From a virus: a stretch of DNA of 64,000 nt. Positions within the stretch are counted from its first letter, which is position 1. Each line of letters begins with the position of its first letter. Below are positions 8,482-36,823 of the stretch, piece after piece. Position numbers and translations under genes: made by a program. Below the pieces are notes generated by a model. The model had not been told where the DNA came from and did no database searches. It saw only the letters and a program-made list of their open reading frames with translations. The stretch is from IMG/VR virus record IMGVR_UViG_3300010885_037795, positions 1 to 64,000 of that record; one strand, written 5' to 3'.

Positions 8482-8505
8482 TGGGTATCCTATAAATTAC
8501 CACTT

Positions 8506-8534
8506 ATTGTAGCGAATAAATACTAAAAGAGCAA
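8506..8534 (-). promoter_or_regulatory. Sigma70-like early promoter for the 55-47-46 operon
   Basis: On the minus strand a -35 element TTGCTC (8529-8534) and a -10 element TACAAT (8506-8511) are separated by exactly 17 bases. The predicted start near 8499 leaves a leader of about 18 bases containing the TAGGAT ribosome-binding region of gene 55. A rightward late-promoter octamer lies inside the spacer. Confidence 0.55.
8515..8525 (+). promoter_or_regulatory. Late promoter (AATAAATACTA) for the baseplate genes
   Basis: AATAAATACTA matches the T4 late promoter (TATAAATACTATT) at all positions but the first. The predicted start is near 8528, about 20 bases before the 48-like gene, and leaves its AGAGG ribosome-binding site in the leader. 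It sits within the spacer of the opposing early promoter. Confidence 0.65.
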
Positions 8535-8548
8535 GAGGAATCTTAAAC

Positions 8549-9523: not shown

Positions 9524-9825
9524 TGTCAGCAAACTATAACAAAACCAGTCCATACTATGGAACAGATAAATTTGGACCTTTCTTGGACATAATGAAATTC
9601 CGAGCAATACCAAAACGTCCAGATGATGTGACTTACATAATTGACCGGGTGTACAAGTATCGGCCTGATTTATTGGCATATGACTTGTACAACGATACAT
9701 CACTGTGGTGGGTGTTTGCTGTGCGCAATCCCAATGTTCTTAAAGATCCAGTTTTTGATTTTGTGCCAGGCGCAACTATTAGAATTCCTAAAAAAGAAAC
9801 ACTAGCCGAAGCACTGGGGGTCTAA
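9523..9825 (+). CDS. 53: Baseplate wedge protein gp53
   Basis: This 100-residue protein carries the conserved gp53 core: YRPDLLAYDLYNDTSLWWVF, then RNPNVLKDPVFDF and a C-terminal LysM-like end (FVPGATIRIPKKETL). In T4, gp53 is the last wedge component and drives joining of six wedges around the hub. The protein is shorter than T4 gp53 (196 residues) but of the size usual in marine relatives. GGAGG at 9509-9513 gives a nine-base spacer to the ATG, which overlaps the preceding stop by one base. Confidence 0.85.
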   Translation: MSANYNKTSPYYGTDKFGPFLDIMKFRAIPKRPDDVTYIIDRVYKYRPDLLAYDLYNDTSLWWVFAVRNPNVLKDPVFDFVPGATIRIPKKETLAEALGV

Positions 9826-9828
9826 CAC

Positions 9829-13404: not shown

Positions 13405-13407
13405 TGT

Positions 13408-15678: not shown

Positions 15679-15681
15679 ATA
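15674..15681 (+). promoter_or_regulatory. Late-promoter-like octamer overlapping the end of gene 5
   Basis: AATAAATA followed by CTATTA matches the T4 late consensus closely. It spans the gene 5 stop codon and ends only five bases before the gp25 ATG at 15687. The predicted transcription start therefore coincides with the start codon, and a transcript from here would be leaderless. Confidence 0.5.
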
Positions 15682-15686
15682 CTATT

Positions 15687-16073
15687 ATGGCTAAAAATAT
15701 ATATCGCGGATTCAGCACACACAATCGTCGAAACAACTTTCAAGTGAGCGACTATGACCTGGTACGCCAGGATCTATTCAATCACTTTAATATCCGTAAA
15801 GGTGAAAAACTCATGAACCCAAATTTTGGAACTATTATTTGGAACATGCTGTTTGACCCTCTTACCACAGAAACAAAGAAGATTATGATTGACGATGTAC
15901 GGCGTATTGTAAACTACGATCCTAGGATCGCAGTACAAAACGTGATATTGAACGAATTTGATCGCGGACTACAAATTGAAATAGAACTAACCTATCTTAC
16001 CACCAATCAGACTGACAGACTAAGTATGAATTTTGATAGAGATAGCATGAAACTGACCCGATCATCACAATAA
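15687..16073 (+). CDS. 25: Baseplate wedge protein gp25
   Basis: This 128-residue protein is the gp25/GPW-type wedge subunit, one of the most conserved baseplate proteins. The visible core includes YDLVRQDLFNHFNIRKGEKL, then NPNFGTIIWNMLFDPL, then DVRRIVNYDPRI, the usual gp25 order. With gp6 and gp53 it forms the wedge core next to the sheath. Length is nearly identical to T4 gp25 (132). A late-promoter motif abuts its start codon. No strong ribosome-binding site is seen within ten bases, so translation may depend on coupling to gene 5 or on a leaderless start. Confidence 0.92.
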   Translation: MAKNIYRGFSTHNRRNNFQVSDYDLVRQDLFNHFNIRKGEKLMNPNFGTIIWNMLFDPLTTETKKIMIDDVRRIVNYDPRIAVQNVILNEFDRGLQIEIELTYLTTNQTDRLSMNFDRDSMKLTRSSQ

Positions 16074-16093
16074 AATACCGTTATTATTGTGCC

Positions 16094-16101
16094 AATAAAT
16101 A
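16094..16101 (+). promoter_or_regulatory. Late promoter (AATAAATAC) before gene 6
   Basis: AATAAATAC lies in the 49-base gap between gene 25 and gene 6. The predicted start near 16107 leaves a leader of about 16 bases before the gene 6 ATG. Confidence 0.6.
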
Positions 16102-16122
16102 CGATAACAGGGCAAAAAATAC

Positions 16123-19100: not shown

Positions 19101-19656
19101 CAACATTATTGATCTGTACTTGCTGACAAAAGTATATGCAACAGATTACCAAGCATGGATTCAAGACACGTCGGGCAAAGTAATCAAACCAACTGCGGCT
19201 AACAATGCCGAACTTAGCATTGAGTTTGGTGCATTGGAAAATATCAAAGCACTTAGCGACACAATCATTTATAATCCAGCACGATTCAAACCACTGTTTG
19301 GAGCCAAGGCAGATCCTGCACTTCGTGCCACATTTAAGGTTGTTAAAAATCCCAATGTGATTATCAGTGACAACGATGTCAAGACCACAGTGGTTGCCGC
19401 AATCAATCGATACTTTGACATTAACAACTGGGATTTTGGCGAGAGCTTTTATTTCAGTGAGTTAAGTGCATATTTGCATAATATATTGTTGCCTAACATC
19501 TCCAGTATTATTATTGTACCAACCAGCGCCCAACTTGGCTTTGGTAATTTGTATCAAATCAATGCCGAAGCTGATGAAATTTTAATCAGTGCGGCAACTG
19601 TGGACAACATAGAAGTAATACCAGCTATCACATCAAGTCAGCTGGGACAAGTTTAA
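16123..19656 (+). CDS. 6: Baseplate wedge protein gp6 (baseplate J-like)
   Basis: This 1,177-residue protein is the gp6 wedge subunit that builds the inner baseplate ring. The N-terminus is highly characteristic: SSEYVALIDLIAFLGQSLAF, then RADLNARENFLDTAERRDSI, then LARLISYNPKR. A baseplate-J-like part follows (NDQIDLVFGDGALANVPQGS, QQYYTQNRMITGEDYNILPY). The C-terminus (DVKTTVVAAINRYFDINNWD, then GESFYFSELSAYL) matches the region that contacts gp25 and neighbouring gp6. T4 gp6 is 660 residues. The additional length is mainly beta-rich central insertion (about 520-1000), as in marine homologues. Confidence 0.92.
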   Translation: MAITTRQTDLLVQQDWKKIYQTFQNADFTAYDFETLRKSMIDYLRTYYPEDFNDFIESSEYVALIDLIAFLGQSLAFRADLNARENFLDTAERRDSILKLARLISYNPKRNISSAGVLKFDAIQTTETLFDSQGLNLSNIPVTWNDPGNDNWQEQFYTVLNAAFVDSQVIGKPGGTGTIAGVKTDEYAINMLPNIVPTFKFESTVNGSLTKFELLSATTAGKEYIYEKDPKPTRIFNILYRNDNLGNDSINTGFFLYFKQGELKTLDFTLTERLPNRVVSVNVDNINNTDVWLYGLDSNGNINELWEKVPAVSGTNVIYNSSTNKNLYQINTRANDQIDLVFGDGALANVPQGSYRAFYRVSNGIGYRITPDEMQNIVLPIAYVNRNGRTEQLTIRCSLQSTVTNAQARETLDEIRTKAPQQYYTQNRMITGEDYNILPYTQFSSILKAKATNRSSSGVSRYLDTLDITGKYSSTNIFAQDGLLYRQESVDAVAFTNSASGNLLAVLKDQINNKLLNENNIPFSHFYYEKFGRFTTTDPVINGSLFYAVWIQMSLATGQSKGYLTLKQTYEDTLDAQGNVINSSVLPLPPLKLSSAASTALRFVTPGSIIVFAASNDVTNLPKCFDVDNKIKLGLPSVAGDKLYLYATVLSFQGDGTAGGILQPGDEGPVAISVYVPNGAVIKEIIPKIYNEVDDDTLRDAVALINSKKNLGIRYDSVAKLWKVVQPQNLKLTQTDSTLIANPAANSEYDITYAGDTAGLAQDSSWIIAFVNSINGYTIYYRQLNYVFESTRETKFYFDPRIRVYDTRTGTVLDDQIKILKINSQPNSTSAFFDDRTYFIYKMIVDADGYENTSKILLKFPDVNRDGVPDNPDIFREIVDPATNTANKYVYFEKTTGLYNFVKFVPIDGTTINTQYQIQGDIERNASLYLDGQIFYATTDDAFYVLSVTVSNGAVSRRAVLSQNYFRYQGRQQLYFQYRHNAPSTRRIDPAPNNIIDLYLLTKVYATDYQAWIQDTSGKVIKPTAANNAELSIEFGALENIKALSDTIIYNPARFKPLFGAKADPALRATFKVVKNPNVIISDNDVKTTVVAAINRYFDINNWDFGESFYFSELSAYLHNILLPNISSIIIVPTSAQLGFGNLYQINAEADEILISAATVDNIEVIPAITSSQLGQV

Positions 19657-19675
19657 CTAGGTAAAAGCAAACAAC

Positions 19676-22600
19676 ATGGCAATCATTAAAACAATAGATT
19701 TACTGCCGATAGTATTTCGATCAGACTCGAACAAAAAGTTCTTGTCGGCCACACTTGATCAATTGGTTTCCGAACCAAACTTCCAGCGAGTCAATGGTTA
19801 TATTGGTCGACAGTTTGCTCCAACATACAAAGCCGGCGACAGCTACATAACCGAACCTGATAAACTACGTCAACATTATCAACTTGAACCCAGTGTGGTT
19901 ATTCGTGACGACAGTAACAATATTCTGCATTACAGCAACTACCGCGACCTACTGAATCAATTAAAATATCACGGGGCCAATGTTACCAATCACGATCGTT
20001 TGTTTGCCAACGAGCAATATAACTTTGATGGCTCAATTGACTTTGACAAATTCATTAACTTCAGTCAGTATTACTGGTTGCCAAGCGGCCCACCGGAGGT
20101 AACAGTTACCGGAAGTAATTTCCGTAACATCTTGAACTACGATGTCAAGCGTGACACCGCAACTAATAGTTTTAAGTTCACTGGATTTAGCACCGACAGA
20201 AATCCACTAATCACTCTAGTGAGAGGAAATACATATACTTTCGATCTTAATTCATCAGGTAACAAGTTTTGGATTCAAACTCGTCCTGGTGTGGGCGGAA
20301 CACGTAGTGTTGAAGCTGAAGTTAACCAAAGAGACATACTAGGAGTTCAACGAAACGGTACTGATATCGGCCAAGTACAATTCTCTGTACCAGCGAGTGA
20401 TGCACAAGATTTTTATGCACGAGCACCATTGGCGACCAATGTTGACTTTGCAATTGGTGGCACATATCGATCTTTTCAAAATAACCTGTTAAACGTGATC
20501 AATTCACGCGGCGGGTTTGACGGTGTTATTGATAATATTGCCAACAAAACACTTATCTTCTTAACACGAGATGAAACAGCAGAAGATTGGACAGATCCAG
20601 GTAACTTTGACCTTGACAAGTTTGACCAAGGCCCACCTGAGTCAAGTGCAATCCCGTATGAAGCAGGTAATCTTGTGCCCGAAGCAGACCGTTACCAAGT
20701 ATGGCTGATCACACTAGTTGACGTTGGTGCCGGCCGCAAGGTTGTTAAATTAATTCCTCGCTATACTGTTAACACCAATGAAAAAGTTTATGTGCGCGAA
20801 GGTAAAACCAATGCCGGACTAGAGTACGTAAAAAATCGTAGCGGAAATTGGGACGAAGCACCAAACATCACAGCACCACTTGATACACTGTATTATCAAG
20901 ACAGCAAAAATCCATTAATGTATGGTACAATCAAGCTAATTGAACCTAATGCAAACTTTGTAAATGTTACTACAGAAATACTTGGTAAGAAAAACTACAC
21001 AAGTCCCAATGGAATTGTGTTCACAAATGGCCTTAGAATTACATTTGATTCTACTGCAACCCCTGTGGCATACATAGGAAATAGTTATATTGTTGAAGGA
21101 GTTGGTCGCGCAATTAAATTAATTAGTGCAACCAACTTGATTGTTCCTGAAGGATATGCAATCAGTGGGCTAACACAGCCTGATTATATCACTGTGAATA
21201 GAGCAAGCATTGATCAAAATCCGTGGAGTCGTAGCAATCGTTGGTTCCACAGTGCGTTAATCAACTTGAGTGCTACTTATAACAATGCACCTGATCAATT
21301 GATAGTTGAAGGACTAGTCAGAGCTACTCGTCCAATTATAGAGTTTGACTCAGATATCAAACTCTATAACTTTGGCACACAAGCCAAAGCCCCAATTGAT
21401 GTAATTGATTTCACAGTCACTGATGCATTTAATCAAGTTGAAGGCAAAACATCATACACTGTAAAATTACCTGGCGGTCAGGCGCCTAAAAAGTTAACAG
21501 AAGGCACACGAATTATATTTGCAAACGATATCGATCCTGATGTTCGTAATCGCATTTATAATGTCACTTTCATTACCACTGACACTGGCACACAAATTCA
21601 TTTGGTATCACTGAATACCACACTGTTGCCTACGTTCAAAGTTGATTCAATTGAAGTAGTGGACAGCAAGCCTTATACTTTTATTCCAACCGTGACACTT
21701 ACTTCGCCATTGCCAGGTCTTGGTGAAGAAACTGCTAATGCCCAAGCACTAATGAGCAACACCACTATTGCTTCCTTTAGTGTAAGCGGCGGCGGAACTA
21801 ATTATATCGCAACACCAGATATTCAAGTTGCAACAGCATACGATGTCCGTGCAAATACTACTGTGGTATTTGATACTACCAAAAAAATAGATTATGTACG
21901 TATCACTGAAGCAGGCACTGGATACTCGACTATTCCTACAATTACTATTGCGCATCCTGAGGCAGTGGTACGCACAAATGCAAACACCACAGTAGAAGGT
22001 AATTTTCTTAGAATGTCTGCGGTTTCGTCGGCGCTGGTCGGTAATTATATCATTGGCGAAGGCATGCCCGGAGGCAGCATTGTATCAAACGTAAACCTAA
22101 GTGATAACAATGTTGGATTTAGCATTCGTACCACTGTGACTTCTAGTGGTAATGAATATGTGTTCAAGACTCTGGGCACATTAGGAACCGATTATCATGT
22201 TCAAACAACTACAGAAGTTTTTACTGCGACACTGACACTAGACGACACAGCTCTAGCACACGAAGGCATGTATGTGTCTGGTCCACGTATTCCTTATGGA
22301 ACAGAAGTTCTAAAAGTAATTAGCCCCACTCAAATTGAAATCAGTCGCGAAGTGAGTACTACTATTGGAGACAAAGTTGTATTTGTTGGTCGTAGAGCCA
22401 CAGCAACTCCAAAAGTTGATGGCGGTAGAATTTTGGCAGTGACTGTTGATTATCCTGGCGCCGGGTATTTTGCACAACCATCCTACAGTATAACTGCTCC
22501 AGCGAGTGGACCAACAGCAACATTTTACCTAGTGATGTCGGACCAGTTTATTCGCTACATTACATTAGATACTGCTGGCAGTGGGTATCAGTTGACCGCT

Positions 22601-25600
22601 AACAACAGTGTGAATATAATAAACACTGTGTCCTCAGTTACCTCAACTGCAACAGTCAACGGAGCAACTCAAATTGAGTTTGCGACTGCAGATGAAATCA
22701 GCTCAGTTGGCGCCGGCTGGCTGTGTTTTTATGTAATTAAATCAGCAGCCGGCATAAAATACGGAGACTTTGCACTAAACACTTATACAGACCGTGCAAT
22801 AACTGGACCAGAACTTAAAGGAACAATATCAACTTATCGCGATTATATGGATATTGCATTAACCAGCTCGACTGTCTATACAGTAACAGGAGTTGATAGC
22901 AATGTAGTTAATCTTGACAAGGCAGTTGAAATACTTGACGAAGATGGAAATCTAATAGATCTCCCAGCCGGTAGTGAGTTGGTGTTTACTTGTCAAAGTA
23001 GATATTTCACTGATGACTTGACTGGTAGTGGCGCACCTGTTGGCGACTTTCAAACTTACCAAACTGCTGTTGACATTGACAGTAGTACAACTGTGCCGGT
23101 TTTAACAGCCCAGGGATTGCAACCCGGCATGCTGATCAGTGACGAATATGGATCAATACCGGATGGCATAAAAATTATTTCAGTTGATTACATTACCAAT
23201 ACCATTGTAGTGTCCGGTGAGCTACGAGTGAGTGCGAATACACCATTTAGAGTAAGTCAGTCTGCACTGGTAAAAGTTACATATCAACCATCCACAATTG
23301 AAAGTATTATTGTTACTGTGCCTGGTCGTGGTTACACCTCTGCTCCTTTAGTGACCATCCAGCCGACTGTGCCCGCAGTCACAGTAGTTGGTGAACAGTC
23401 TGAAACTACTGATTCATATTATGTTGTGGTTGAAAGCTTGGTGGGTATCCTAGTAGGCTCTAGGGTCACCAGCGACTACGACGGTTTTGGTATCGGTATA
23501 ACTGTAGGGGACACAATTCCTGAAGTGCAAGAACTGATTACCACAATTGATGCAGTTGGCGTCGAAACGTACAAGGTTCGACTGGATGTGCTCCAGCCAC
23601 CATTTATTTCTAGAAACATTACATTTACCTACGCTTCTGAAGCCATTGCCAGAGTTGCTCCAATTAACAACATTGATATAACATCAATTGACACCACACC
23701 TGATACATATGATGCAGGCAACAACGTACTGCTAACGACCCCTACGAATATTCAACAGTTGATAACTGATGTTCCGGTCTACCACGAATACTGGTACAAC
23801 GGCACCAGCTGGCAACCAGGTCAACAAAAAACTGGATATACACAATCTCCGTTGTTTGATATTTTCGATGATACCGGCGTTAGTGTAGCTGATGCCGACA
23901 GCTATCCTGGCAGTAAGTTCGTTGGCACTAAAATCTTTGGGTACAAAATTGGAACAGGATCAATTGATTCTGTACTTGGCGTTCCATTGAGCTACCGCAA
24001 TTTCCAGGCAGTTGGTGATATACAATTTCAGAATTACTGGGACACTGATCAGTTTAACTACCTAGTGGGATCTACGGAACAAACTGTTACTGTGAACACT
24101 TTTTATCTTAAAGAAACAAGCGCAGATGGGTCAGCATCATATCGAAATATCTGGAGAAAGACCAGCGAAAAAACACATCAATACCAGGTAATAAATCATG
24201 TGTTTGATGACCGTACAAATTATTTTGAAATTGATGTTTTACCAATTGATAGTTTAACTGTACCTTACATTAAAGTTTACCTTAACAACAATTTGTTAAG
24301 TGAAAGTAGTTTTTCAATTGAATCAGTTGGTGTACGTACCGCTGTGGTGATTGAACCTGCGCTGTTATCAACAGGTGCTAAAGTTGATATTAGAATTTAC
24401 AGCAATAGCATAAGCAAACTTGGCTATTATGAGATTCCGTCAAACCTTGATAACAATAGCTCAAACTCAAACTTTGAAGTACTAACACTAGGACAAATGA
24501 GAAATCATTATACCACCATGGCCGAAAACAATTACGGTCTCGAGGGTGTTGTGCTAGGGTCTAATAATGTACGTGACATTGATATAAAAAGCTGGGCTGG
24601 TAGTATCCTACAACACGCCAGTCCAATTCCATTGGCAAACGTGTTCTTATTGCAACGAGAGTTTAATCTAGTAGAAGCAGTTGAGCTGGCACAAAAAGAA
24701 TATACCAAGTTCAAGAATAGATTTTCAGAACTTGCGATTACACAACAAAACACAATTCTAGATATTCCAAAGGCAGTTGATGCAATACTTGAGCAGATGA
24801 ATTCTGCCAAGAGCACATACTCACCGTGGTACGATAGCGATATGTTACCGTGGGGCACCAAATACCGCACTGAATTATTGTATCCTGTTATCAACGTGCA
24901 ACAACGCATTTATCAGATTCCAACTTTTTATGATGACAAACTAGTTTCAAATCGTGCGGTACTGGTATATCTAGTCAACAAAGTAACTGGCGAAGATCGA
25001 CTGCTGGTTAAAGATACTGATTACTCATTTAGCACAACCACTGCGGGCATACTGTTGTCAGACAGTTTGTTATTAACCGTTAACAATGTTGTAAAGGTAT
25101 TGTACTTTAATTCCACTGAAGGCAATTATGTACCTGAGACACCAACCAAACTAGGATTATATCCAAAGTTCAAGCCTCAGATATTTGAAGATACCACATA
25201 TCAAAATCCTGTGCGAGTTATACAAGGACACGATGGCAGCTTGACTCCGGTGTTCAATGATTTTAGAGATCAGATGTTGCTAGAAATTGAAACTAGGATC
25301 TACAACAACATCAAAGTCAACTATGCTGAAAACATTTTTGATCTATACGAATTTATTCCGGGCAAGTTTAGAAAAACAGCATATGATCGAAAAGAGTTCA
25401 CTCGTGTGCTTACCAAGAACTTCTTAAAATGGTTGGGAACCAATCAAGTTGATTATGCTGACAGCAGTTTTTTCCAGAGTAACAATGCATGGACATGGAA
25501 CTATAAGAAATTAAAAGATCGTATTGATGGCGAAAATCTACCAGGATTCTGGAGAGGAATTTATCAATACTTCTACGACACAGACCGCCCAAATCTAATG

Positions 25601-28600
25601 CCGTGGGAAATGTTGGGCTTTAGTGAGCGCCCAGACTGGTGGGTGGCACGTTATGGCAATGCTCCGTACACTGGTGGTAACAATGTATTGTGGGCGGACC
25701 TAGAACAAGGTTATATCTACAGCGGCTCACGTACAGGAATAGATCTGCGTTTTGCAAGACCTGGCTTGAGTAAACTAATCCCTGTTGATGAGTACGGTTT
25801 ATTGATTAGTCCTGAAAAACTATTTCCTAAACAGTTCAATGGTAGAAACCTTGGCGGAGCATTTGCCATTGGCGATCAAGCACCTGCTGAAACTGCATGG
25901 CGTCGTAGCAGTGATTTTCCTTATGCAATGCAAATTGCATTGATGCTAACAAACCCTGCTTACTATTTTGGTAGCCTGGTCAACACACATGCTTACTATC
26001 GTAATATCAACTTGGATCAATTGGTAGTCAGAAATAACAAACAGCGACTTACTAAAGACACTGTTGAAATCCCTAACGTTGGATCCAATGGAGATCCAGT
26101 TGTTCACACCTCAGGTTATATCAATTGGGTGAGAGATTTCTTAGTGAATCGCGGTATTGACCCAGCGCCTAAGATTAAATCATATTTGAAAAATGTCAAT
26201 GTAAATCTCAGCTATGCAACAGCTGGATTTGCGGATAAAAATTATCTAAATGTATTGGCAGAACAAGGTTCTCCTACCTACAACAATGAAAGTGTAATCA
26301 TACCCGACGAAAATTACGAAGTATATCTGCATAAGAGTGCTCCGGTTAATCGTGCGGTTTATAGCGCAGTCATAATTGAAAAAGGCGACAACGGATGGAA
26401 AGTAACCGGATATGATTTGGCTAATCCTTACTTTACTATTGTACCAAGTGAAGCTCAAGGCCGCAGTTATCAAATTAGCGTGGCTGGTACTGGTGCAACA
26501 ATCTACAGAGATTATCGTTCTGTAAAAATTACTGTGCCTTATGGTCACGAGTTCAACAGTCGTCAACAAGTTGTTGACTTTTTGGTTGCCCACGGTCGTT
26601 ATATGGTAAGTCAAGGATTTGTGTTTGACACCATGAACAACGATATGGCATCCAAGCAAGATTGGATATTGAGTGCAAAAGAATTCCTGACCTGGAGTCA
26701 GCAAGGGTGGCAGTCAGGAAACATTCTTGTACTAAGTCCTGCATTTAACAACCTCAAAGTTCAAGGTGCAATGAGTGTGGTTGACTTTGTTGAGAACCGC
26801 ACCAGTGGCAGCAAAGTACTAGATCAAAATTTCCAAATTATTCGAAACAACCAGTTCTCAATCACTAGATCAGACAATGTGTTTACATTCACAGCAAACT
26901 TTGGGCAGACCATTGGCTATGCTGAATTTAATCTAGTGCAGTACGAGCACATCTTGGTGTTTGATAACGAAACAGTGTTCAATGACGTGATCTACAAACC
27001 AGCTGAAGGTATCAGACAATTCCGGTTCAAGCTGGTTGGAAACAAAACTGGTAACTGGACAGGTGCATTGAATCCTCCGGGATTCATGTACAATTCCACT
27101 ACCATCCAGACCTGGAAAGCTGATATAACATATAAAAAGGGCGACTTTGTTGATGTCAATGGCATTGTGTACCTTGCATTGATTGACATTGACGCCACGC
27201 AAAAATTTGAGTTCAGCAGCAGCTGGCAAGAAGTAAATCGCAAAGATATCAAAACAGGCTTGCTACCTAACTTTGCATCTCTGGCGCAAAAGTTTGAAAA
27301 TATCTATGACGTGGACAATTTGCCAGCCGCTGAAGATCTGCGCAAGTTTAGTAACGGGTTGATTGGATTCCGCCAACGTCAATTCTTTAGTGACTTTAGT
27401 CTAAGCGATGAATCTCAAGTGAAGTTTTACCAAGGCTATATTACACAAAAAGGAACACTAGATTCTATCACTGCACTTACCCGAGCAACTTTTAACAATA
27501 TCACCAGTGAGATTGAGGTGTTTGAAGAGTGGGCAGTTCGTGTCGGTGAATATGGTGCGTTAGACAGTGACCAGTCTGTTGAAGTATTATTAAAAGAATC
27601 ACAACTGACAGATGATCCAACCACACTAATACTATTGGATAATGCTGACGCCGACGTGCCAGGCGCAGTGCCTATTCGTACCAACGATATGTATCAAATT
27701 CCAGTAGACTACAGTAAAAACATTATTCCTACTAGAGCCAGTTACCAGCCGCAGATCACTGATTTTGTTACTGCTGGTTATGTTAACCTTGATGATATCA
27801 ATGGTACTATCTTTGATATACAAAATTTCAGTGAGTTAGTGAATGTGTTGCCAGACATTGGCAGTGGATATAAACTATGGGTAGCTAAAGATTTCAGCAG
27901 TAGCTGGAACGTGTATCGTGTTACAGAAACTAACAACCTAGTAACCAGCTTGACATATAACCTAGACAATTTTATGATTGTGGGGTTTGATAACCCGCAC
28001 GATTTTGTTGTTGGTGAAGTAATGGGTATCAAAGGATTTGATACAGATTTTGATGGATTCTATCAAGTGATTGGTATCGATGGACTTAAGAGTGTTCTGA
28101 CTATTGCCACTAGAAATATTGATGTTCTAAAAAGTGCGCAAACAATAACAGACACAGGTGTGTTGTTTAGATTAAAATCAGTACGATTTAATCTAGCCAG
28201 CGACATCAACAACTTCACTCCACCAAACGGGTGGAAAGATGCTGATCGCGTTTGGATTGATAACAATGATGCGATCAACAGTTGGGCAGTGTACCAAAAA
28301 GCCAATGCATGGAAAACTGCTGGAAATCTAGTACTACGCCCAGGCGAGTACACATCTGACGAAGGATATGGTCGTGCAGTTTCTACCAACTATGACAACA
28401 CACTGTTAATGGTTGGATCACCGTTGAACAACTCTGGACAAGTTGCCAAGATTAATATTTCTGATCCTGGGCAAAACTATGGATCTACTGTAGTTTCTTT
28501 CTCTTACCCAGATCGTGAAACTGGTGGAATACGTGCTCAAGGAACTGCACTTCGCGAGTCCGGCACAATCCTACAAGCCAATTTGGTAACCGGTGGGTCG

Positions 28601-31600
28601 GGATTTACAAAAATTCCAACAGTGATTATTTCAGATTTTAGCAATCTAACTTCAACCTCTACTAGAGTTGGTTCACCGTATGTTAACGTTGCTAGTACAT
28701 CAACGCTAAAGGTTCTTGACCGCGTGACATCTGCAAACCTTGCCAATGTATCTAACACTGTGGTTACAGAGATTGTAAGCACAACAAATGTAAGATTGAA
28801 TGCCGCTACAACAATTTCTACAGGCGACTGGGTCAGATTTGATCGTGGCACGAACGGAAACGTACAAGCAAGATTAACTCCGACCAGTATTGCTAGTATT
28901 AGCATTATCAATGGTGGGTCGGGTTATGTAACTGCACCAGCGATTGAAATAATCGGCGGCGGTGGCACAGGCGTGGTTGCCAACACTGTGATCACAGCTG
29001 GAGTAATCACTGCTTGCTATGTTATTAGCAACGGGGCAGGATTCACTGAGCCGCCGGCTGTTCGGGTGATATCACCCACTATTAGTCTTGCCACTAATCT
29101 AGTTGCGGTACTGACTTCCACTAGCGTAGCATCACTAGAAGTTATTAACAAAGGACTATCTATAGAAAGTTCTTATTCCGGATACAGCTCTAATGCCACA
29201 ATAGCAATCACTGCGGTAGCAGGAGACACAGGCGTTGGCGCAACTGGTAATATTCGTGTAAGCTACCTAAGCATTGGTGGAATTGAAATTTCAGTGCAAG
29301 GACAGGGTTACCTTGAACCACCGTCTATTACAATAACTGACTTGACTGCGGTAGGAACTGGGTTTGCTGCCAACACTGTGTTAACAACCGGTGTAGTTAA
29401 AACATTCTTGAGAAATAAAGAAACACTAGCATATAGCCAAATTGATACGATTCGTGCATTTGGCCCAGACGCCGGAGAATTTGGCGCAGATATTAAAATG
29501 GGAGTTTACTCAAGTGCAATTGGTGCACCGGGTAGTTTTTCTGATCGGGGTACAGTCACACTATTTCAATTTGCCGGAGGAGTAAGTTGGAATACTCAAC
29601 AAATTTTACAACCAGTATCAACAAATGCCGGCGCAAGATTTGGTGAAAGTGTTGCAATGAGCAAAGATGAAAATTGGTTGTATGTTGGCGCACCGGGTAT
29701 CAACCGAGTGTATGCATACGCACAAAAACAAACATCATTGTCTAGAACAACTATTACACTGGCCGGTGGCGCATCTACTTACTTTATAAATCTTCCTGGG
29801 GCAACTCAAACAGCTGAAGTTTCTATTGTTGGTGACAGTGGTAAAGTGTACCAACCAGGCCTGGAGTTTTCGTTGATTGGTAGCACACTGTCGTTTGTTA
29901 GTTTAGCTGTACTAGCAAGAGATACCAAGTTGTTTGTGGCACAACAGAGCAACACAACAACAATTAGATGCAATACTTCGATCACCACCTATGCACTGTC
30001 GAGTCTTCCAGAATCTGTGGACGCAATAACAGTAATTGATTCATCGGGCCGCATATTTGTTCCACAAGCCGAATATTATCTAAATGGGCAAAATCTTGTG
30101 TTCCGTAACTCTGCCGAGCTTGTTGCAGTAACCATCACAGTGCGACCATTATTGACCTACTATACATTGATGGGCACTATTGCACCACCTGAAACAATTG
30201 AAAGTTCTGCAAAGTTTGGCGCATCATTGGCAACTACAGAATACGGATATCAACTGTTGATTGGTGCACCGGATGCCAGCGTCAATGGCGTTATCCGTGC
30301 AGGTCGTGCATATGCGTACGATAGAAATTATGAATTGTTCCAGGCATTTGGTAACAATCGAAGCTTTAATGCTCGCGAGGCCCTTAAACAAGTAACACGA
30401 GTAACAGTCGACGGCATTGCTAAAGTTGAGTCTGTTGACTACACTAAATCTGGGTCAACAATCGTGTTTGATGCTATTCCTGACAGCGGAAGTTTGGTTA
30501 GAATTGATCTTAACGATTTCAACTTGATCCAAAAACTAACTCCACCAGATCCAGTTACACAAGGAAGATTTGGTGCTAGTGTTACCATCTCTGACGATAA
30601 CACAGGTTTATTTGTTGGATCCCCGGGATACAACCTTCCAGGCTACTACTTTGGGTCAGTGTATCGTTATGTCAACCGAGGCAAAGTATACGGTGATGCA
30701 GCCAGCACAATCTCAACTGCTAGCATTTTGTTGGCTGTTGGCGACACTATACGTATCAACGAACAACACGTATCTGTTGGTCTCACATCTGGGGAAGATT
30801 TTATCAATCAGATTAATGCTATTGGTATTCCGGGTGTGGTTGCTGCCAACATCAATGGTAATGTGGTTATCACTGGGGATAATGTTTTAACAAATAACAA
30901 ACTGGATATTTTACCTAGTGACGGTGCAGTACTGGCCGACTTAGGATTGTCAGTTTACAGTTACATCCAAGAAATTCGCCACCCAGGTGTGGGTAACCCA
31001 GAACGATTTGGCTCTAAGATTAAAATTAGTGACAATCTTGAGACATTGGTAATCAGCAGTGAGCAAGGCGCTACTCTTAAGATTACCACGTTTGATGAAC
31101 TAACAACTACATTTGACAAAACAACCACATCATTACTTGACGCACTTAAACAAGCCGGTGCAGTATATGTGTATGATTTCTTGAGCGTACCAAATGACAG
31201 TTTAGCGCAACCTTCACAATTTGTTTTTAGTCAGGTGTTGCAAAATGCGTACATCAATGCAAGAGACAATTTTGGATCAAGTCTTGACATCAACAAAGAT
31301 GTGATTATCATTGGTGCAGAATTCAACGATAACTTTGGTAACAACACTGGACTAGTACACATATTCACCAACCCTGACTTGAAGAAAAGCTGGACAGTCA
31401 CACGCAATCGCACAGACAAAGTTGACACCAATCATGTTAACAAGATCTTTGCCTACGACACCCGCACACAAACGATTGTGGCTCAATTTGATTATCTTGA
31501 TCCTGTTAAAGGAAAAATACTTGGCGTGGCAGATCAAGACATTGATTATAAAACAGTAGATGATCCTGCAACATACAATCTTGGCGCCGAAGCTCGCGTG

Positions 31601-34600
31601 AATATCGACGCTACTGGACCATGGGGTGATTTCCAACTTGGACAAGTTTGGTGGGACCTAAGCACAGTCAAGTACATTGACTACGAACAAGATACAGTGA
31701 GCTATCGCGCTATCAATTGGGGAGCAACATTCCCGGGTTCTAGCATTGATGTTTATGAATGGGTGTCTAGCGACTTTTTACCTAGCCAGTATATAACAAT
31801 CGGCGGCGACGGCGTACCTAAGCACCCAGCTGACACTGCTTACGTTCGTCGTGCATACATTGATGATGCCACTGGATTGGCCAGAGTAAAATATTATTTC
31901 TGGGTAAAAAACAAACGCAGTATTACTTTCAATGCAACCCGCAGAACAAATAGTGTAACTGGTATTGCTGATTTAATCGCCAATCCAGCGTCACAAGACA
32001 TTCCGTATGTTTCGTTTATTCAAAGCAATGCGTTCAATGTTTATAACTCTAAATCACTGCTTCAAGGTGATTATATTGCGCTTCACATTGAATACAGCAA
32101 AGTACAAAACAGCAACATTGTTCACAGTGAGTTCCAACTGGTACAACAGAACAATCCCAAGAGCAAGATTCCAACTCGCGTGATTAATAAAATTGTTGAC
32201 AGTATCTCTGGAGAAGACTCTGTTGGTAACATTGTTCCAGATTTACGTTTGCCGGCAGCAGGACGAGTTGGCTTGAGTTTGCGCCCTCGACAGACGTTGA
32301 TACTTGACAACGAAGCAGCCACCAAAGTGTTTGTGAGTTTTGTAAATTCAGTATTTGCTTCATATCAGGTAGTTGGTAAATTTGATCTGGCAAACATGCT
32401 AGATAACGAAGCTATTCCTGCATCGGACTCTGGATGGTACCACATCGAAATCGACATCATTGACCAATTGATGTACATTCCAACAGAACAACTATTAGTA
32501 GGTACAAGAAGTACTTCTGGGTTCCGGGTGCTAGTGGATCGCGATTCCACCTACCAAAACTTCTGGACCATTTACGAATGGCAAGGTGTTGTTAAAGGCT
32601 GGGTGCTGATTCGTATCCAAAGCTATGATAACAGTCGTTACTGGAGTTATGTAAACTGGTATGCCACAGGTTACAATGACACTGTGCTGATTGACACAGT
32701 GGTTAACACGGTGAATGATATTTCAACTTTGAACTTAACGTCTGGACAAATTGTCAAGGTACTAGACAACGGGCTGGGTAATTATGAAATTTATGAAATT
32801 GATTCTACTCTACGTGCAATACCGGTCATAAGTGAAAAAGGAACGATTGAAGTAACTGCTGATGCATTTGATGTTCTTAAAGCCAAAATTGGATTTGATA
32901 ACTCTGCATTCGACAGTCAAGGGTTTAGCAAAAATGCCGCACAAGAGTTGCGTAACATTTTTGTTGCAATCTACAACGAAATTTTTGTAAATGACCTACA
33001 AGGTAAAACCAATGAACTGTTCTTTAGTTTAGTTAACTATATCTTTACTGAGCAACGTAGTCTAGATTGGATCTTAAAGACCAGCTTCTTAACAGTGGCA
33101 CACAAACTAAGAAAGCTGTTGCAGTTTCCTGCATTTATCAAAGACAATCAAGATTACTATCAACAGTACATTGATGAAGTCAAGCCATATCGTTCACAGG
33201 TGCGTGAATACGTGCTTAACTACGAAGGAGTTGATGAATCATATAGCAAAACCACTGACTTTGATTTTTACAGTTACTACGATAAAGCACAATCAGCTAG
33301 AAGAAATCTTGACACAAACAATGCAGATGATCGTGCAGTTATACGTGCAACCAATCGCAGTGACTGGTACAGTAGTTACAGCTACCAGATACAAGAGATT
33401 GTGATCACACGCTCAGGATCAGGATACACAGTTGCCCCTGCGGTAACTGTGACCGGCGGCGGCGGATCCGGTGCAAAAGCACAAGCAATACTTGGCGCAG
33501 TTGGAACAGCAACCGAAGGACAGATTATTGGTGTAGAGTTGTTGAATGCAGGAACTGGATTCACTAGCACTCCAACAGTTGAATTTGCAATCAGTAGCGG
33601 AACTGGCGTGTCAGCCTATGCAAGACTGTCTGTACCAGCTGGTACAGTGATAGCACCAAACGACATACGGAATCGCATGGTACGAAATATTTCTACCAAG
33701 TTAAAATTTGACCGTGTTTCGTATTATGCAACTGGGGTGCGTCCTTGGATTTCATACACAACCTACTCCGCTGGTCAAGTTATAACAGTGAACGATCAAA
33801 AGACAATTGAGTTTGCAAACTACCCTGGCGATCGATTCCCAGGAACTCGTCGCGCATACTTGCTTAACCAAAATTTCTTGGGCGCAAGTATCCTGAACGA
33901 AAAAACACTGCAAGACTCCACTCAAGCAACGCTACTTGATGGCAGCTATTTTGACAATGCAAACGACCGGTTGATGGCATACTGGCAACCGGGTAGTACA
34001 GACCTTGGCACAGTGTTCTGGAGTGAAGATGCGATGCGTGTTAGAGAGTCGGACGTCAAGACCAGTCTCCAATCACTTTACACACGTATTGAACGTGTGG
34101 CACACAGCACATTGTCTCCTGTGAGTAGCAACTTTGCCTACATGGCAGTTGGCTTTGATGGTGCGATTCTTGCCAGCGTGGACGGCAAGCACTGGGTAGA
34201 TGCTAATACTGTAGAAATATCTACAAACCTACGTGGTGTTGAAAACTACGGTGGTGTGTACTGGGTAGCAGTAGGTGCGCAAGCAACAGTACTACTGTCA
34301 GAGAATGGGCTAGACTGGGGATCGTTTGCAGTGCAATCATTCTACTACAGTCCTGTTGGATCTGGCGCATCAGCACAAACTCCGGCCCTGGGTCTTCCAT
34401 ATGGATTAGTAAGCGAGAACACACAGTCATCGGTTGACTTTACTGACCTTACTACATTCACCAGCACCGCGGCCACGTATGCAGTTGCGGTAGGAAACAA
34501 CGGAACTATTTTAATTAACCCGTTTACTACATTCACCGGGTTAATTCCTTCTTGGTACAGTGTGACTCCACAAGGAGTAACCTCTGCGCAAAATACACAA

Positions 34601-36823
34601 TACCTGCGTGTGATAAACAAAGCCACCGGATACTTGGCCGATCCAAATGGGTTACCATACCTGGTAAAATTATCCGCTGATGGTTATTATTATCTTGATA
34701 TCAATGGCAAGCCATTGTTAACCGGATATATGATGGTTGCTGGTATACAAGGAAAGAGTTCACTGATTCCGTTCAGCGGAGTTGACGCGGCAATGCAAGG
34801 TTATGTGTACGGATACAACTATGATAGTCAAGAGACTTATCCTTACACAGTATTCAACGAACCTACACAAGTTACTGGGCTAGGATTAGGGTATATTGGT
34901 GAACAAGTGAACGGTATAGCATTCACTGACACCACTGACTTTGTTGTCATGGTTGGATCGGGTGGAACACTGTTGTGGAACAGTGTTGATACGGCTTACA
35001 AGATTCAAAATGGTACTGGTGTTGCTGCCGATACAGTTGGACGCATTATTGTAAACTACCAGCCGGTGAGTTACAAAAACTTCAAGTATTTCTCTGACAG
35101 TGAATTTGAATACCCATTGAAGAGAGAAGATGTCAAACACAACTTCCAGGATATTGTGTACGATGGTGAGAAATACATTGTCACCGGCGATAGAGATATT
35201 GTGCTATGGGGATACCCAGACACTAAACCAACAGGAGACTTTGGATTAACCAGCACCACGTTCATCAACATCAATGCTAATATTGCAGCCGGTGCTACCA
35301 TGACACTACGATCACAGACCAGTAATGTTACTATACAAACCGCTGGTGTGTTATCACGTGGAGCAAGCATAATTACCACAGCCAACTTAAATCTAGTAAA
35401 CAGCAATTACATGATCACTGCAATTAATGGTAATGCCAGTGCAGTGGTTGGAAATGTCGGCTTCACTGGAAAGTTAATTGGATCAGCTGTGTACGGCGCG
35501 GCACGTCATGACTTGGTGACATTTACTAATCCAGTTACCTCAGCATCGTTTAGTCTCAAAACTTCATTGAATAGTGCAAACGGATCAAGCACACTAAGCT
35601 TCACGGCAGCAAACTTGTTCTACCCAAATAATACCTGTAAGATCACGACTGGCATGATTATTAGTCATGCCAATGTATCTGCAAGTATCGGAGCCTATGC
35701 ATTTGTTACCAACTACGGCCCAATGGTTGAGTTTACAAACAAAGAGCCTGCATTTACTTGGAAGTATGCACCAGGGTTTAATAGAAATCCTGATTTGGAT
35801 TTTGTGTCAACTGCAATTAACAGAAATACCATTCAAATTGACCTACCACTTCAAGCTAATCTAGTGGCTGGCACAACTATCACATTCAACGACACTGCTG
35901 GTGCCGCATACAACTTTAACCTGTTGAGCAATGTTTATATTGGTAGCAACATACTGGCTTTTTCAAATCTTGCAGTGACATCAATTGTTCAATCAGGGTG
36001 GACCGTGGCCAACACTGTGTATCCTGCTATACAACCAAACAGCAATGTAATCTCATCTGGCACTTACTTGTTCAGTGGTGTGCGCAATCGTCAATTCAAA
36101 GACATTCCTGACAATATTCCAGGTACAGAGTATGCCGGAGTCAAAGTACAAGGCAGTGAGTTTGACGATGCTATTCAACTTGATACGGTTATGTCCAGCG
36201 AGTTTGGAGATGATGCACTAGGTGTTCGCGCTGAAGATATTGTTGTTGATGGTGGTCAATTTATTGACACATATTCAAGTTTTGCACCACAGGAATTAAT
36301 TCCTGGACGATTAACAGACAACTTACAGATCTCAGTGTTTACCAATAACCCTGCTAATGTGGCAGCAGTTGCTGGTTACAGAATTAGTTACAATGGCCGC
36401 GATCCTGCTACATACTATAGAATCAGCGCAGCCAACACAACTACACTGGCTGAAGATTTGCCCTACTCGGCATTGAGTATCAAGCTAACTGATGTAAGTG
36501 GATTACCAACGCCAAGTCCGGACCAAAACAAGGCTGGTGTGTTGTTTGTAAATGGCGAGATGATCAATTACTTTACTATCAACCGAGGCAATAACACAGT
36601 TGGACAACTTCGCAGAGGTGTAAACCGTACAGGTACACCGTTGATACATAAAGTAGGTAGCTTGGTAACGGATTCGTCTAGACTGTCTTATGTGACACAG
36701 GACGTGGCAGTTGCAATCACACAAGACTTTACAGCCAACAACATGATCAACAATGAGAGCTTGTTCCGTGCTGCGATTGACAAAGAAATTGTACAGGGTC
36801 AAACCTGGTACATTGTACCATAA
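19676..36823 (+). CDS. Giant virion/baseplate protein with two beta-propeller-like regions
   Basis: The 5,715-residue protein occupies the place of T4 genes 7-8 and begins like the giant structural proteins of cyanophage-type myoviruses (IDLLPIVFRSDSNKKFLSAT, then FDKFINFSQYYWLPSGPP). It is probably a wedge or peripheral baseplate component. Seven FG-GAP-like units occur near residues 2898, 3268, 3321, 3512, 3632, 3778 and 3865 (pattern FGxSVxxSxDxxxLxVGxPG, as in RFGASVTISDDNTGLFVGSP), suggesting an integrin-type seven-bladed propeller with insertions. Five BNR/Ycf48-like units lie near 4821, 4861, 4935, 5088 and 5162 (such as YMAVGFDGAILASVDGKHW). Scattered G-S/A-GY-xx-xP-xVTV repeats occur near 706, 928, 1219, 2972, 3080, 3120, 3209 and 4582. 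The frame is continuous over 17 kb with no break. Exact function is unknown. Confidence 0.8.
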   Translation: MAIIKTIDLLPIVFRSDSNKKFLSATLDQLVSEPNFQRVNGYIGRQFAPTYKAGDSYITEPDKLRQHYQLEPSVVIRDDSNNILHYSNYRDLLNQLKYHGANVTNHDRLFANEQYNFDGSIDFDKFINFSQYYWLPSGPPEVTVTGSNFRNILNYDVKRDTATNSFKFTGFSTDRNPLITLVRGNTYTFDLNSSGNKFWIQTRPGVGGTRSVEAEVNQRDILGVQRNGTDIGQVQFSVPASDAQDFYARAPLATNVDFAIGGTYRSFQNNLLNVINSRGGFDGVIDNIANKTLIFLTRDETAEDWTDPGNFDLDKFDQGPPESSAIPYEAGNLVPEADRYQVWLITLVDVGAGRKVVKLIPRYTVNTNEKVYVREGKTNAGLEYVKNRSGNWDEAPNITAPLDTLYYQDSKNPLMYGTIKLIEPNANFVNVTTEILGKKNYTSPNGIVFTNGLRITFDSTATPVAYIGNSYIVEGVGRAIKLISATNLIVPEGYAISGLTQPDYITVNRASIDQNPWSRSNRWFHSALINLSATYNNAPDQLIVEGLVRATRPIIEFDSDIKLYNFGTQAKAPIDVIDFTVTDAFNQVEGKTSYTVKLPGGQAPKKLTEGTRIIFANDIDPDVRNRIYNVTFITTDTGTQIHLVSLNTTLLPTFKVDSIEVVDSKPYTFIPTVTLTSPLPGLGEETANAQALMSNTTIASFSVSGGGTNYIATPDIQVATAYDVRANTTVVFDTTKKIDYVRITEAGTGYSTIPTITIAHPEAVVRTNANTTVEGNFLRMSAVSSALVGNYIIGEGMPGGSIVSNVNLSDNNVGFSIRTTVTSSGNEYVFKTLGTLGTDYHVQTTTEVFTATLTLDDTALAHEGMYVSGPRIPYGTEVLKVISPTQIEISREVSTTIGDKVVFVGRRATATPKVDGGRILAVTVDYPGAGYFAQPSYSITAPASGPTATFYLVMSDQFIRYITLDTAGSGYQLTANNSVNIINTVSSVTSTATVNGATQIEFATADEISSVGAGWLCFYVIKSAAGIKYGDFALNTYTDRAITGPELKGTISTYRDYMDIALTSSTVYTVTGVDSNVVNLDKAVEILDEDGNLIDLPAGSELVFTCQSRYFTDDLTGSGAPVGDFQTYQTAVDIDSSTTVPVLTAQGLQPGMLISDEYGSIPDGIKIISVDYITNTIVVSGELRVSANTPFRVSQSALVKVTYQPSTIESIIVTVPGRGYTSAPLVTIQPTVPAVTVVGEQSETTDSYYVVVESLVGILVGSRVTSDYDGFGIGITVGDTIPEVQELITTIDAVGVETYKVRLDVLQPPFISRNITFTYASEAIARVAPINNIDITSIDTTPDTYDAGNNVLLTTPTNIQQLITDVPVYHEYWYNGTSWQPGQQKTGYTQSPLFDIFDDTGVSVADADSYPGSKFVGTKIFGYKIGTGSIDSVLGVPLSYRNFQAVGDIQFQNYWDTDQFNYLVGSTEQTVTVNTFYLKETSADGSASYRNIWRKTSEKTHQYQVINHVFDDRTNYFEIDVLPIDSLTVPYIKVYLNNNLLSESSFSIESVGVRTAVVIEPALLSTGAKVDIRIYSNSISKLGYYEIPSNLDNNSSNSNFEVLTLGQMRNHYTTMAENNYGLEGVVLGSNNVRDIDIKSWAGSILQHASPIPLANVFLLQREFNLVEAVELAQKEYTKFKNRFSELAITQQNTILDIPKAVDAILEQMNSAKSTYSPWYDSDMLPWGTKYRTELLYPVINVQQRIYQIPTFYDDKLVSNRAVLVYLVNKVTGEDRLLVKDTDYSFSTTTAGILLSDSLLLTVNNVVKVLYFNSTEGNYVPETPTKLGLYPKFKPQIFEDTTYQNPVRVIQGHDGSLTPVFNDFRDQMLLEIETRIYNNIKVNYAENIFDLYEFIPGKFRKTAYDRKEFTRVLTKNFLKWLGTNQVDYADSSFFQSNNAWTWNYKKLKDRIDGENLPGFWRGIYQYFYDTDRPNLMPWEMLGFSERPDWWVARYGNAPYTGGNNVLWADLEQGYIYSGSRTGIDLRFARPGLSKLIPVDEYGLLISPEKLFPKQFNGRNLGGAFAIGDQAPAETAWRRSSDFPYAMQIALMLTNPAYYFGSLVNTHAYYRNINLDQLVVRNNKQRLTKDTVEIPNVGSNGDPVVHTSGYINWVRDFLVNRGIDPAPKIKSYLKNVNVNLSYATAGFADKNYLNVLAEQGSPTYNNESVIIPDENYEVYLHKSAPVNRAVYSAVIIEKGDNGWKVTGYDLANPYFTIVPSEAQGRSYQISVAGTGATIYRDYRSVKITVPYGHEFNSRQQVVDFLVAHGRYMVSQGFVFDTMNNDMASKQDWILSAKEFLTWSQQGWQSGNILVLSPAFNNLKVQGAMSVVDFVENRTSGSKVLDQNFQIIRNNQFSITRSDNVFTFTANFGQTIGYAEFNLVQYEHILVFDNETVFNDVIYKPAEGIRQFRFKLVGNKTGNWTGALNPPGFMYNSTTIQTWKADITYKKGDFVDVNGIVYLALIDIDATQKFEFSSSWQEVNRKDIKTGLLPNFASLAQKFENIYDVDNLPAAEDLRKFSNGLIGFRQRQFFSDFSLSDESQVKFYQGYITQKGTLDSITALTRATFNNITSEIEVFEEWAVRVGEYGALDSDQSVEVLLKESQLTDDPTTLILLDNADADVPGAVPIRTNDMYQIPVDYSKNIIPTRASYQPQITDFVTAGYVNLDDINGTIFDIQNFSELVNVLPDIGSGYKLWVAKDFSSSWNVYRVTETNNLVTSLTYNLDNFMIVGFDNPHDFVVGEVMGIKGFDTDFDGFYQVIGIDGLKSVLTIATRNIDVLKSAQTITDTGVLFRLKSVRFNLASDINNFTPPNGWKDADRVWIDNNDAINSWAVYQKANAWKTAGNLVLRPGEYTSDEGYGRAVSTNYDNTLLMVGSPLNNSGQVAKINISDPGQNYGSTVVSFSYPDRETGGIRAQGTALRESGTILQANLVTGGSGFTKIPTVIISDFSNLTSTSTRVGSPYVNVASTSTLKVLDRVTSANLANVSNTVVTEIVSTTNVRLNAATTISTGDWVRFDRGTNGNVQARLTPTSIASISIINGGSGYVTAPAIEIIGGGGTGVVANTVITAGVITACYVISNGAGFTEPPAVRVISPTISLATNLVAVLTSTSVASLEVINKGLSIESSYSGYSSNATIAITAVAGDTGVGATGNIRVSYLSIGGIEISVQGQGYLEPPSITITDLTAVGTGFAANTVLTTGVVKTFLRNKETLAYSQIDTIRAFGPDAGEFGADIKMGVYSSAIGAPGSFSDRGTVTLFQFAGGVSWNTQQILQPVSTNAGARFGESVAMSKDENWLYVGAPGINRVYAYAQKQTSLSRTTITLAGGASTYFINLPGATQTAEVSIVGDSGKVYQPGLEFSLIGSTLSFVSLAVLARDTKLFVAQQSNTTTIRCNTSITTYALSSLPESVDAITVIDSSGRIFVPQAEYYLNGQNLVFRNSAELVAVTITVRPLLTYYTLMGTIAPPETIESSAKFGASLATTEYGYQLLIGAPDASVNGVIRAGRAYAYDRNYELFQAFGNNRSFNAREALKQVTRVTVDGIAKVESVDYTKSGSTIVFDAIPDSGSLVRIDLNDFNLIQKLTPPDPVTQGRFGASVTISDDNTGLFVGSPGYNLPGYYFGSVYRYVNRGKVYGDAASTISTASILLAVGDTIRINEQHVSVGLTSGEDFINQINAIGIPGVVAANINGNVVITGDNVLTNNKLDILPSDGAVLADLGLSVYSYIQEIRHPGVGNPERFGSKIKISDNLETLVISSEQGATLKITTFDELTTTFDKTTTSLLDALKQAGAVYVYDFLSVPNDSLAQPSQFVFSQVLQNAYINARDNFGSSLDINKDVIIIGAEFNDNFGNNTGLVHIFTNPDLKKSWTVTRNRTDKVDTNHVNKIFAYDTRTQTIVAQFDYLDPVKGKILGVADQDIDYKTVDDPATYNLGAEARVNIDATGPWGDFQLGQVWWDLSTVKYIDYEQDTVSYRAINWGATFPGSSIDVYEWVSSDFLPSQYITIGGDGVPKHPADTAYVRRAYIDDATGLARVKYYFWVKNKRSITFNATRRTNSVTGIADLIANPASQDIPYVSFIQSNAFNVYNSKSLLQGDYIALHIEYSKVQNSNIVHSEFQLVQQNNPKSKIPTRVINKIVDSISGEDSVGNIVPDLRLPAAGRVGLSLRPRQTLILDNEAATKVFVSFVNSVFASYQVVGKFDLANMLDNEAIPASDSGWYHIEIDIIDQLMYIPTEQLLVGTRSTSGFRVLVDRDSTYQNFWTIYEWQGVVKGWVLIRIQSYDNSRYWSYVNWYATGYNDTVLIDTVVNTVNDISTLNLTSGQIVKVLDNGLGNYEIYEIDSTLRAIPVISEKGTIEVTADAFDVLKAKIGFDNSAFDSQGFSKNAAQELRNIFVAIYNEIFVNDLQGKTNELFFSLVNYIFTEQRSLDWILKTSFLTVAHKLRKLLQFPAFIKDNQDYYQQYIDEVKPYRSQVREYVLNYEGVDESYSKTTDFDFYSYYDKAQSARRNLDTNNADDRAVIRATNRSDWYSSYSYQIQEIVITRSGSGYTVAPAVTVTGGGGSGAKAQAILGAVGTATEGQIIGVELLNAGTGFTSTPTVEFAISSGTGVSAYARLSVPAGTVIAPNDIRNRMVRNISTKLKFDRVSYYATGVRPWISYTTYSAGQVITVNDQKTIEFANYPGDRFPGTRRAYLLNQNFLGASILNEKTLQDSTQATLLDGSYFDNANDRLMAYWQPGSTDLGTVFWSEDAMRVRESDVKTSLQSLYTRIERVAHSTLSPVSSNFAYMAVGFDGAILASVDGKHWVDANTVEISTNLRGVENYGGVYWVAVGAQATVLLSENGLDWGSFAVQSFYYSPVGSGASAQTPALGLPYGLVSENTQSSVDFTDLTTFTSTAATYAVAVGNNGTILINPFTTFTGLIPSWYSVTPQGVTSAQNTQYLRVINKATGYLADPNGLPYLVKLSADGYYYLDINGKPLLTGYMMVAGIQGKSSLIPFSGVDAAMQGYVYGYNYDSQETYPYTVFNEPTQVTGLGLGYIGEQVNGIAFTDTTDFVVMVGSGGTLLWNSVDTAYKIQNGTGVAADTVGRIIVNYQPVSYKNFKYFSDSEFEYPLKREDVKHNFQDIVYDGEKYIVTGDRDIVLWGYPDTKPTGDFGLTSTTFININANIAAGATMTLRSQTSNVTIQTAGVLSRGASIITTANLNLVNSNYMITAINGNASAVVGNVGFTGKLIGSAVYGAARHDLVTFTNPVTSASFSLKTSLNSANGSSTLSFTAANLFYPNNTCKITTGMIISHANVSASIGAYAFVTNYGPMVEFTNKEPAFTWKYAPGFNRNPDLDFVSTAINRNTIQIDLPLQANLVAGTTITFNDTAGAAYNFNLLSNVYIGSNILAFSNLAVTSIVQSGWTVANTVYPAIQPNSNVISSGTYLFSGVRNRQFKDIPDNIPGTEYAGVKVQGSEFDDAIQLDTVMSSEFGDDALGVRAEDIVVDGGQFIDTYSSFAPQELIPGRLTDNLQISVFTNNPANVAAVAGYRISYNGRDPATYYRISAANTTTLAEDLPYSALSIKLTDVSGLPTPSPDQNKAGVLFVNGEMINYFTINRGNNTVGQLRRGVNRTGTPLIHKVGSLVTDSSRLSYVTQDVAVAITQDFTANNMINNESLFRAAIDKEIVQGQTWYIVP

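Follow-up and report, generated by a model that had tools for sequence, protein, structure and literature searches.

Proteins of 3,000-6,000 residues are usual at the position following gp6 in RaK2-like phages and in cyanophages. Among the RaK2-like isolates, this protein comprises 3,857 residues in PA5oct (gp355), 4,449 in Atu_ph07 (gp180), 3,807 in SCTP-2 (gp140), 3,326 in RaK2 (ORF070), and 3,340 in CBB (CBB_236). The gene immediately before it is annotated as a gp6-type baseplate wedge subunit in PA5oct, Atu_ph07, RaK2, and CBB, and its neighbours are annotated 'hypothetical' in SCTP-2. CBB_236 is listed in a virion protein table (PMC5259590), and the PA5oct protein was found in virions by ESI-MS/MS according to its record note; both are homologues of the protein described below rather than that protein itself.

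In cyanophages, the giants encoded after gp6 comprise 3,007 residues in S-SSM7, 4,156 in S-SM2, 4,225 in ACG-2014f, and 6,064 in ACG-2014a, where the product is a structural protein. The S-SSM7 product matches the profile of T4 gp7 with a probability of 94%, and the aligned N-termini of cyanophage gp7 candidates and related ones, including that of ACG-2014a, match T4 gp7 with 97.4%. The ACG-2014a protein resembles S-SSM7 gp7 in a tblastn comparison (30% identical residues across 72% of the query). Judged from these sequence comparisons, the cyanophage giant located directly after gp6 is a member of the gp7 family. S-SSM7 carries two genes named gp7, and only the first resembles T4 gp7. Regarding FG-GAP or Ycf48 domains in phage tails, we found no description in the literature searched, which excludes most subscription journals.

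The window analysed here is a stretch of 64,000 nucleotides, corresponding to positions 1 to 64,000 of the IMG/VR virus record IMGVR_UViG_3300010885_037795, which has 74,019 bases. One of its genes, hereafter the giant (Table 1), is a single open frame of 5,715 codons plus a stop, encoding a protein of 627 kDa with a pI of 4.9. An open frame of this length has a probability of about 1e-148 from base composition, and the start and the frame are kept in more than 20 related contigs. The same-strand genes upstream of it encode, in order, a gp53-like protein, a virion protein of 1,191 residues, a gp5-like hub, gp25, and a gp6-like wedge protein, and it is followed by two small genes and by tail fibre genes.

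Table 1 Positions in the window of the giant gene, its modules, and neighbouring baseplate and tail fibre genes
Feature	Positions	Strand	Remarks
gp53-like baseplate wedge subunit	9523..9825	+	
gp5-like baseplate hub / tail lysozyme family, OB domain	13408..15678	+	
gp25-like baseplate wedge protein	15687..16073	+	
gp6-like baseplate wedge subunit, T4 gp6 homologue	16123..19656	+	phrog_10646
Giant virion/baseplate gene	19676..36823	+	5,715 aa, phrog_10938 family
Scaffold segment A, residues 1-640	19676..21595	+	kept in all relatives
Predicted beta-sandwich, cupredoxin-like in model, residues ~149-430	20120..20965	+	rusticyanin 2cal match
Accessory insert B, residues 641-1370	21596..23785	+	G-x-GY repeats; missing from most relatives
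Scaffold segment C, residues 1371-2880	23786..28315	+	most conserved part; mean column identity of 55%
FG-GAP propeller region, seven units, residues 2890-3900	28343..31375	+	Pfam, profile
Insert of G-x-GY repeats separating FG-GAP units 1 and 2, residues ~2925-3245	28448..29410	+	
Scaffold segment E, residues ~3905-4570	31388..33385	+	also kept in PA5oct, Atu_ph07, partly RaK2
Predicted YCF48/WD40-like propeller, residues ~4762-5185	33959..35230	+	five visible BNR-like motifs
Conserved C-terminal segment G, residues 5480-5715	36113..36820	+	
Tail fibre family protein	37925..40519	+	downstream of giant

The window also contains several other genes of note. Five adjoining radical SAM / SPASM genes are located at 50045-57590 (+); Radical_SAM is seen in four of them, in one case above the Pfam cut-off, and SPASM exceeds the cut-off in three. 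Three further radical SAM-like genes are located at 778-4807 (-), and the total number is unusual for a phage region. A carbamoyltransferase gene is found near the cluster, at 60170-61663 (+), with E-values of 2e-37 and 4e-47 for the N- and C-terminal Pfam domains, respectively, and a SegE-type GIY-YIG endonuclease is encoded at 305-733 (-).

The two halves of the giant match the virion structural protein family phrog_10938 (E=1.6e-262 and 7.5e-72; 2.2e-59 for the N-terminus). By these matches, the giant is a member of a known family, encoded beside a gp6-like wedge gene in RaK2-like jumbo phages, and not a new kind of gene. A tblastn search with the giant returned 59 phage records, nearly all of them from jumbo phages of the RaK2/PA5oct/Atu_ph07 type, and a scan of viral contigs returned 33 related loci, most of which are 43-55% identical over a query of 1,000 residues. 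Larger members than the protein of the window exist, as the open frame of one relative, in a contig of 354,959 bases, extends over 6,292 codons. In another relative (L030), the giant reads as two overlapping frames, at 7676-10897 (1,073 aa) and 10848-20195 (3,115 aa); the frames of L014 and L016 are open across this overlap, and in L030 the gene may be genuinely split or the contig may contain a frameshift from sequencing.

From the comparison of all homologues, the giant could be divided into widely common scaffold segments (A, C, E, and G) and inserts, namely B, the FG-GAP region, and residues 4762-5480, the last of which comprise the YCF48-like wheel and a beta-rich stretch. The shared scaffold amounts to about 3,400 residues and is collinear with the homologues of PA5oct, Atu_ph07, SCTP-2, RaK2, and CBB; the inserts account for the remainder, and the giant of the window has 5,715 residues compared with 3,326-4,449 in these isolates. 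The slot between segments C and E, which holds the FG-GAP region in the window, is only about 86 residues long in RaK2. Four complete relatives (L012, L023, L024, and L031) have neither insert B nor the YCF48-like wheel and comprise about 3,900 residues. A giant is ordinary for this virus group, and the two added wheels are a lineage-specific elaboration. The scattered G-S-GY-type repeats reported by the initial annotation are well above chance, with seven matches to the strict pattern G-x-G[YF] compared with 0.03 expected in shuffles.

Among solved structures, sequence searches with segments A, C, and E gave nothing credible. The first 130 residues or so of segment A, in which the wedge helices would be expected, are helical in the structural model, at low confidence: when the N-terminal 650 residues were modelled, most of residues 1-128 had a pLDDT below 50, and only the cupredoxin-like sandwich found a structural match, a weak one. 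Its comparison with rusticyanin (2cal) gives a Z of 9.3, which barely exceeds the usual background, with an rmsd of 2.8 over 100 aligned residues. Residues 150-242 match phrog_677, a family of gp9-like connectors (E=3.4e-6; best E of 5.6e-14 in a relative). In segment C, a stretch at residues 2479-2502 (27110-27181, +) resembles CBM_5_12 with 19.6 bits, under the Pfam cut-off of 26.2, and one Pseudomonas phage homologue of the giant carries the annotation chitin-binding.

The giant had initially been placed at the position of T4 genes 7-8, neither of which was otherwise visible. It does occupy the place of gene 7, directly after the gp6 homologue, but homology to gp7 or gp8 is undetectable. 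Pfam models find neither gene in the rest of the record or in the complete relatives, with a positive T4 control. The Phage-Gp8 model matched nothing in the record or in PA5oct, Atu_ph07, SCTP-2, RaK2, and the 355-kb relative (2e-199 for the T4 control), and the helical and fifth Gp7 domains matched nothing in the record and gave chance-level scores, none above cut-off, in the other genomes (4.4e-32 and 7e-50 for T4). Profiles of T4 gp6-gp11 and gp13 were compared with the neighbouring ORFs, the two propeller regions, and segments A, C, and E, and the only match was that of ORF 16123-19656 to gp6 (hhalign probability of 92%). When 25 N-termini were scanned with Pfam and PHROG, no gpI/gp7-type family was found. 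The N-terminus of the window family matches gp7 with an hhalign probability below 1%, compared with 97% for the cyanophage proteins against T4 gp7. However, this test also misses the pair gp6 and gp7, although their XM1 counterparts share a helix-turn-helix of the core bundle (PMC10457771), and it is therefore too insensitive to exclude a relation to gp7.

Nevertheless, the position of the giant and the cyanophage precedent suggest an equivalence to gp7. The family membership, the gene order, the presence of homologues in virions, and the modular build are established. We infer in addition that the giant is probably a gp7-equivalent wedge scaffold, whose inserted propellers would serve as partner-binding platforms. 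In the baseplate wedge of RaK2-like jumbo myoviruses, the protein would stand in for T4 gp7. Made right after the gp6 homologue, it would most likely co-assemble with it into six wedges. The arrangement in T4 and XM1 suggests six copies, each of which would join two copies of gp6 and carry the periphery of the baseplate. Some of the phages with homologues (CBB, Atu_ph07, and RaK2) have sheath whiskers or branched fibres, which would be consistent with the giant forming such an appendage outside the wedge. We consider this very improbable, as the order gp53-gp5-gp25-gp6-giant groups it with the wedge genes.

With regard to the FG-GAP region, the FG-GAP_2 model of Pfam matches the second half of the protein with E=2.7e-20 and the region alone with E=1.7e-22, at 79.7 bits against a curated cut-off of 23, and was found in all of the 19 homologues scanned. 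Seven cores are observed, at residues 2913, 3282, 3337, 3529, 3647, 3793, and 3879, in agreement with the seven units first noted at about 2898-3890. Units 1 and 2 are separated by an insert of 320 residues with G-x-GY repeats, whereas L024 and L031 have an insert-free region of only about 400 residues, which is the size of one wheel. The seven units are thus predicted to fill a single wheel. The description of this propeller as integrin-like holds with regard to the number of units and to the profile of ten relatives, which matches integrin alpha-4 with E=2e-7, along with further integrins; it does not extend to the metal loop, since the DxDxDG-type calcium pattern D-x-[DN]-x-[DNSG]-G is absent from residues 2890-3900.

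All adequately covered metagenomic relatives contain the FG-GAP region. In contrast, FG-GAP_2 is found nowhere in PA5oct, SCTP-2, and RaK2, nor in the giant of Atu_ph07, and the family's own FG-GAP profile matches only the edge adjoining segment E in Atu_ph07 and SCTP-2. Atu_ph07 has FG-GAP_2 units in a separate frame of 409 residues outside the giant (NC_042013.1, 243045-243311, -). In the segment C tree, FG-GAP-bearing relatives cluster together and a relative with a partial match (L037) forms the next branch, although the isolates are on long branches. The seven-unit propeller, located between segments C and E, would have been inserted in this lineage.

Between the window and the relative L006, identity reaches 46.7% in the FG-GAP blades, 51.3% in the scaffold, and 35.9% in the YCF48-like wheel. 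With a conservation close to that of the scaffold, the FG-GAP blades are more readily seen as a structural part or a partner-binding platform than as a fast-changing receptor tip, although conservation is weak evidence in this respect. FG-GAP and BNR-type wheels are binding folds, and this general property, together with the tail fibre genes directly downstream and the chitin-binding-like stretch at residues 2479-2502, which is under the Pfam cut-off, could also point to a tail-fibre-like adhesin, with the propellers acting as receptor-binding domains for surface proteins or glycans on long arms, much as suggested in the initial annotation. However, the conserved scaffold of about 3,400 residues is common to phages of very different hosts, separate tail fibre genes exist, and blades that evolve nearly as slowly as the scaffold (47% versus 51%) are unlike typical receptor-binding tips, so that an adhesin appears unlikely.

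The C-terminal wheel is less clear from motifs. The initial annotation listed five BNR-like units at about 4821-5180, and five motifs can be recognised, four by pattern (4825, 4939, 5093, and 5170) and one by eye (4866). Nonetheless, no Pfam BNR family matches the protein of the window, a strict BNR regular expression gives zero matches, and PSII_BNR matches two of seven homologues, with a best E of 0.017. The AlphaFold model of the region, built from seven sequences, has a mean pLDDT of 47.9, with 191 residues at 70-90 and a weak last third. With this low-confidence model, Foldseek ranks YCF48 (2xbg) first (E=1.8e-6), in line with the 'Ycf48-like' guess, followed mainly by seven-bladed WD40 proteins, and hundreds of propellers rank behind YCF48. 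A second fold comparison with the same model aligns the WD40 protein TBLR1 over 277 residues (Z 21.1, rmsd 3.3). The matches span model residues 3-424, equivalent to about 4762-5185 of the protein, which is the size of a seven-bladed wheel and not of a five-bladed one; the modelled wheel is thus probably seven-bladed, and the earlier count of five holds for the visible motifs only. The suggestion of a sialidase-like propeller was not borne out: no Pfam family of any kind matches the BNR-like region of the window up to E=1, and two Asp-box-like motifs are seen instead of a full set.

The low pLDDT, the small number of sequences, and the lack of a Pfam BNR match could also indicate a loose run of beta hairpins, for which the fold match would be an artefact of a weak model. 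We regard this as quite improbable, as YCF48 ranks first with hundreds of propellers next, as Z is about 21 over about 277 residues, and as an independent search of a viral library matched the wheel to several phage proteins, including a 'baseplate wedge initiator' of S-SSM7 and a protein named 'photosystem II stability/assembly factor'. Both propeller regions, identified by Pfam in the case of FG-GAP and by fold match in the case of the BNR-like wheel, are thus located within one uninterrupted frame of 17 kb, as first proposed.

The YCF48-like profile was found in eight relatives (L006, L007, L009, L026, L027, L029, L033, and L035), and not in the complete relatives without the insert, and no YCF48-like propeller was detected in the giants of the RaK2-like isolates; L008 and L011, whose sequences end early, were left out of this comparison. 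As far as profile matches can tell, the wheel is confined to a subset of relatives near the window, and its distribution on the segment C tree requires two changes and does not demonstrate a single gain. In this subset, the YCF48-like propeller would have been inserted between segments E and G, and modules of G-x-GY repeats would be further insertions of the lineage. The inserts enlarge the giant at fixed points. On the wedge scaffold that we favour, the propellers would most likely project outwards as rigid platforms for partners such as the tail fibres and small baseplate proteins of the neighbouring genes, and might in addition contact the cell surface. It is conceivable, if rather doubtful, that the scaffold offers exchangeable slots for different seven-bladed wheels, one slot taking FG-GAP and another the YCF48 type, and forms a megadalton ring of twelve propellers around the baseplate, which would decide the docking of fibres or receptors.

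The RaK2-like giant virion protein may thus be described as a conserved scaffold with insertable propeller modules, and it is a candidate for the missing gp7 equivalent. For one of the largest phage proteins that lack a functional assignment, this offers a concrete reading open to testing, with domain boundaries defined for structural work.

In comparison with known systems, the FG-GAP region resembles the propeller of integrin alpha in its seven units and its profile match, and differs from it by the lack of DxDxDG-type calcium loops and by large inserts between blades. YCF48, a photosystem II assembly factor with a BNR-like seven-bladed wheel, is the first-ranked fold match of the C-terminal region, whereas the wheel of the window has no curated Pfam match and is part of a virion protein. 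T4 gp7 is also encoded after gp6, but it comprises 1,032 residues, and neither its Pfam domains nor a profile similarity to it were found in the giant of the window. Between the cyanomyovirus gp7, the baseplate wedge initiator, and the scaffold of the window's protein, no sequence homology could be detected, and cyanomyoviruses have a recognisable gp8 downstream and no FG-GAP that we could find. They share with the window a giant gene located directly after gp25-gp6, and the second gp7-named gene of S-SSM7, SSSM7_103 (L050:7651-16656), exhibits G-x-GY-type repeats and a short similarity to the YCF48-like region (E=3.3e-9).
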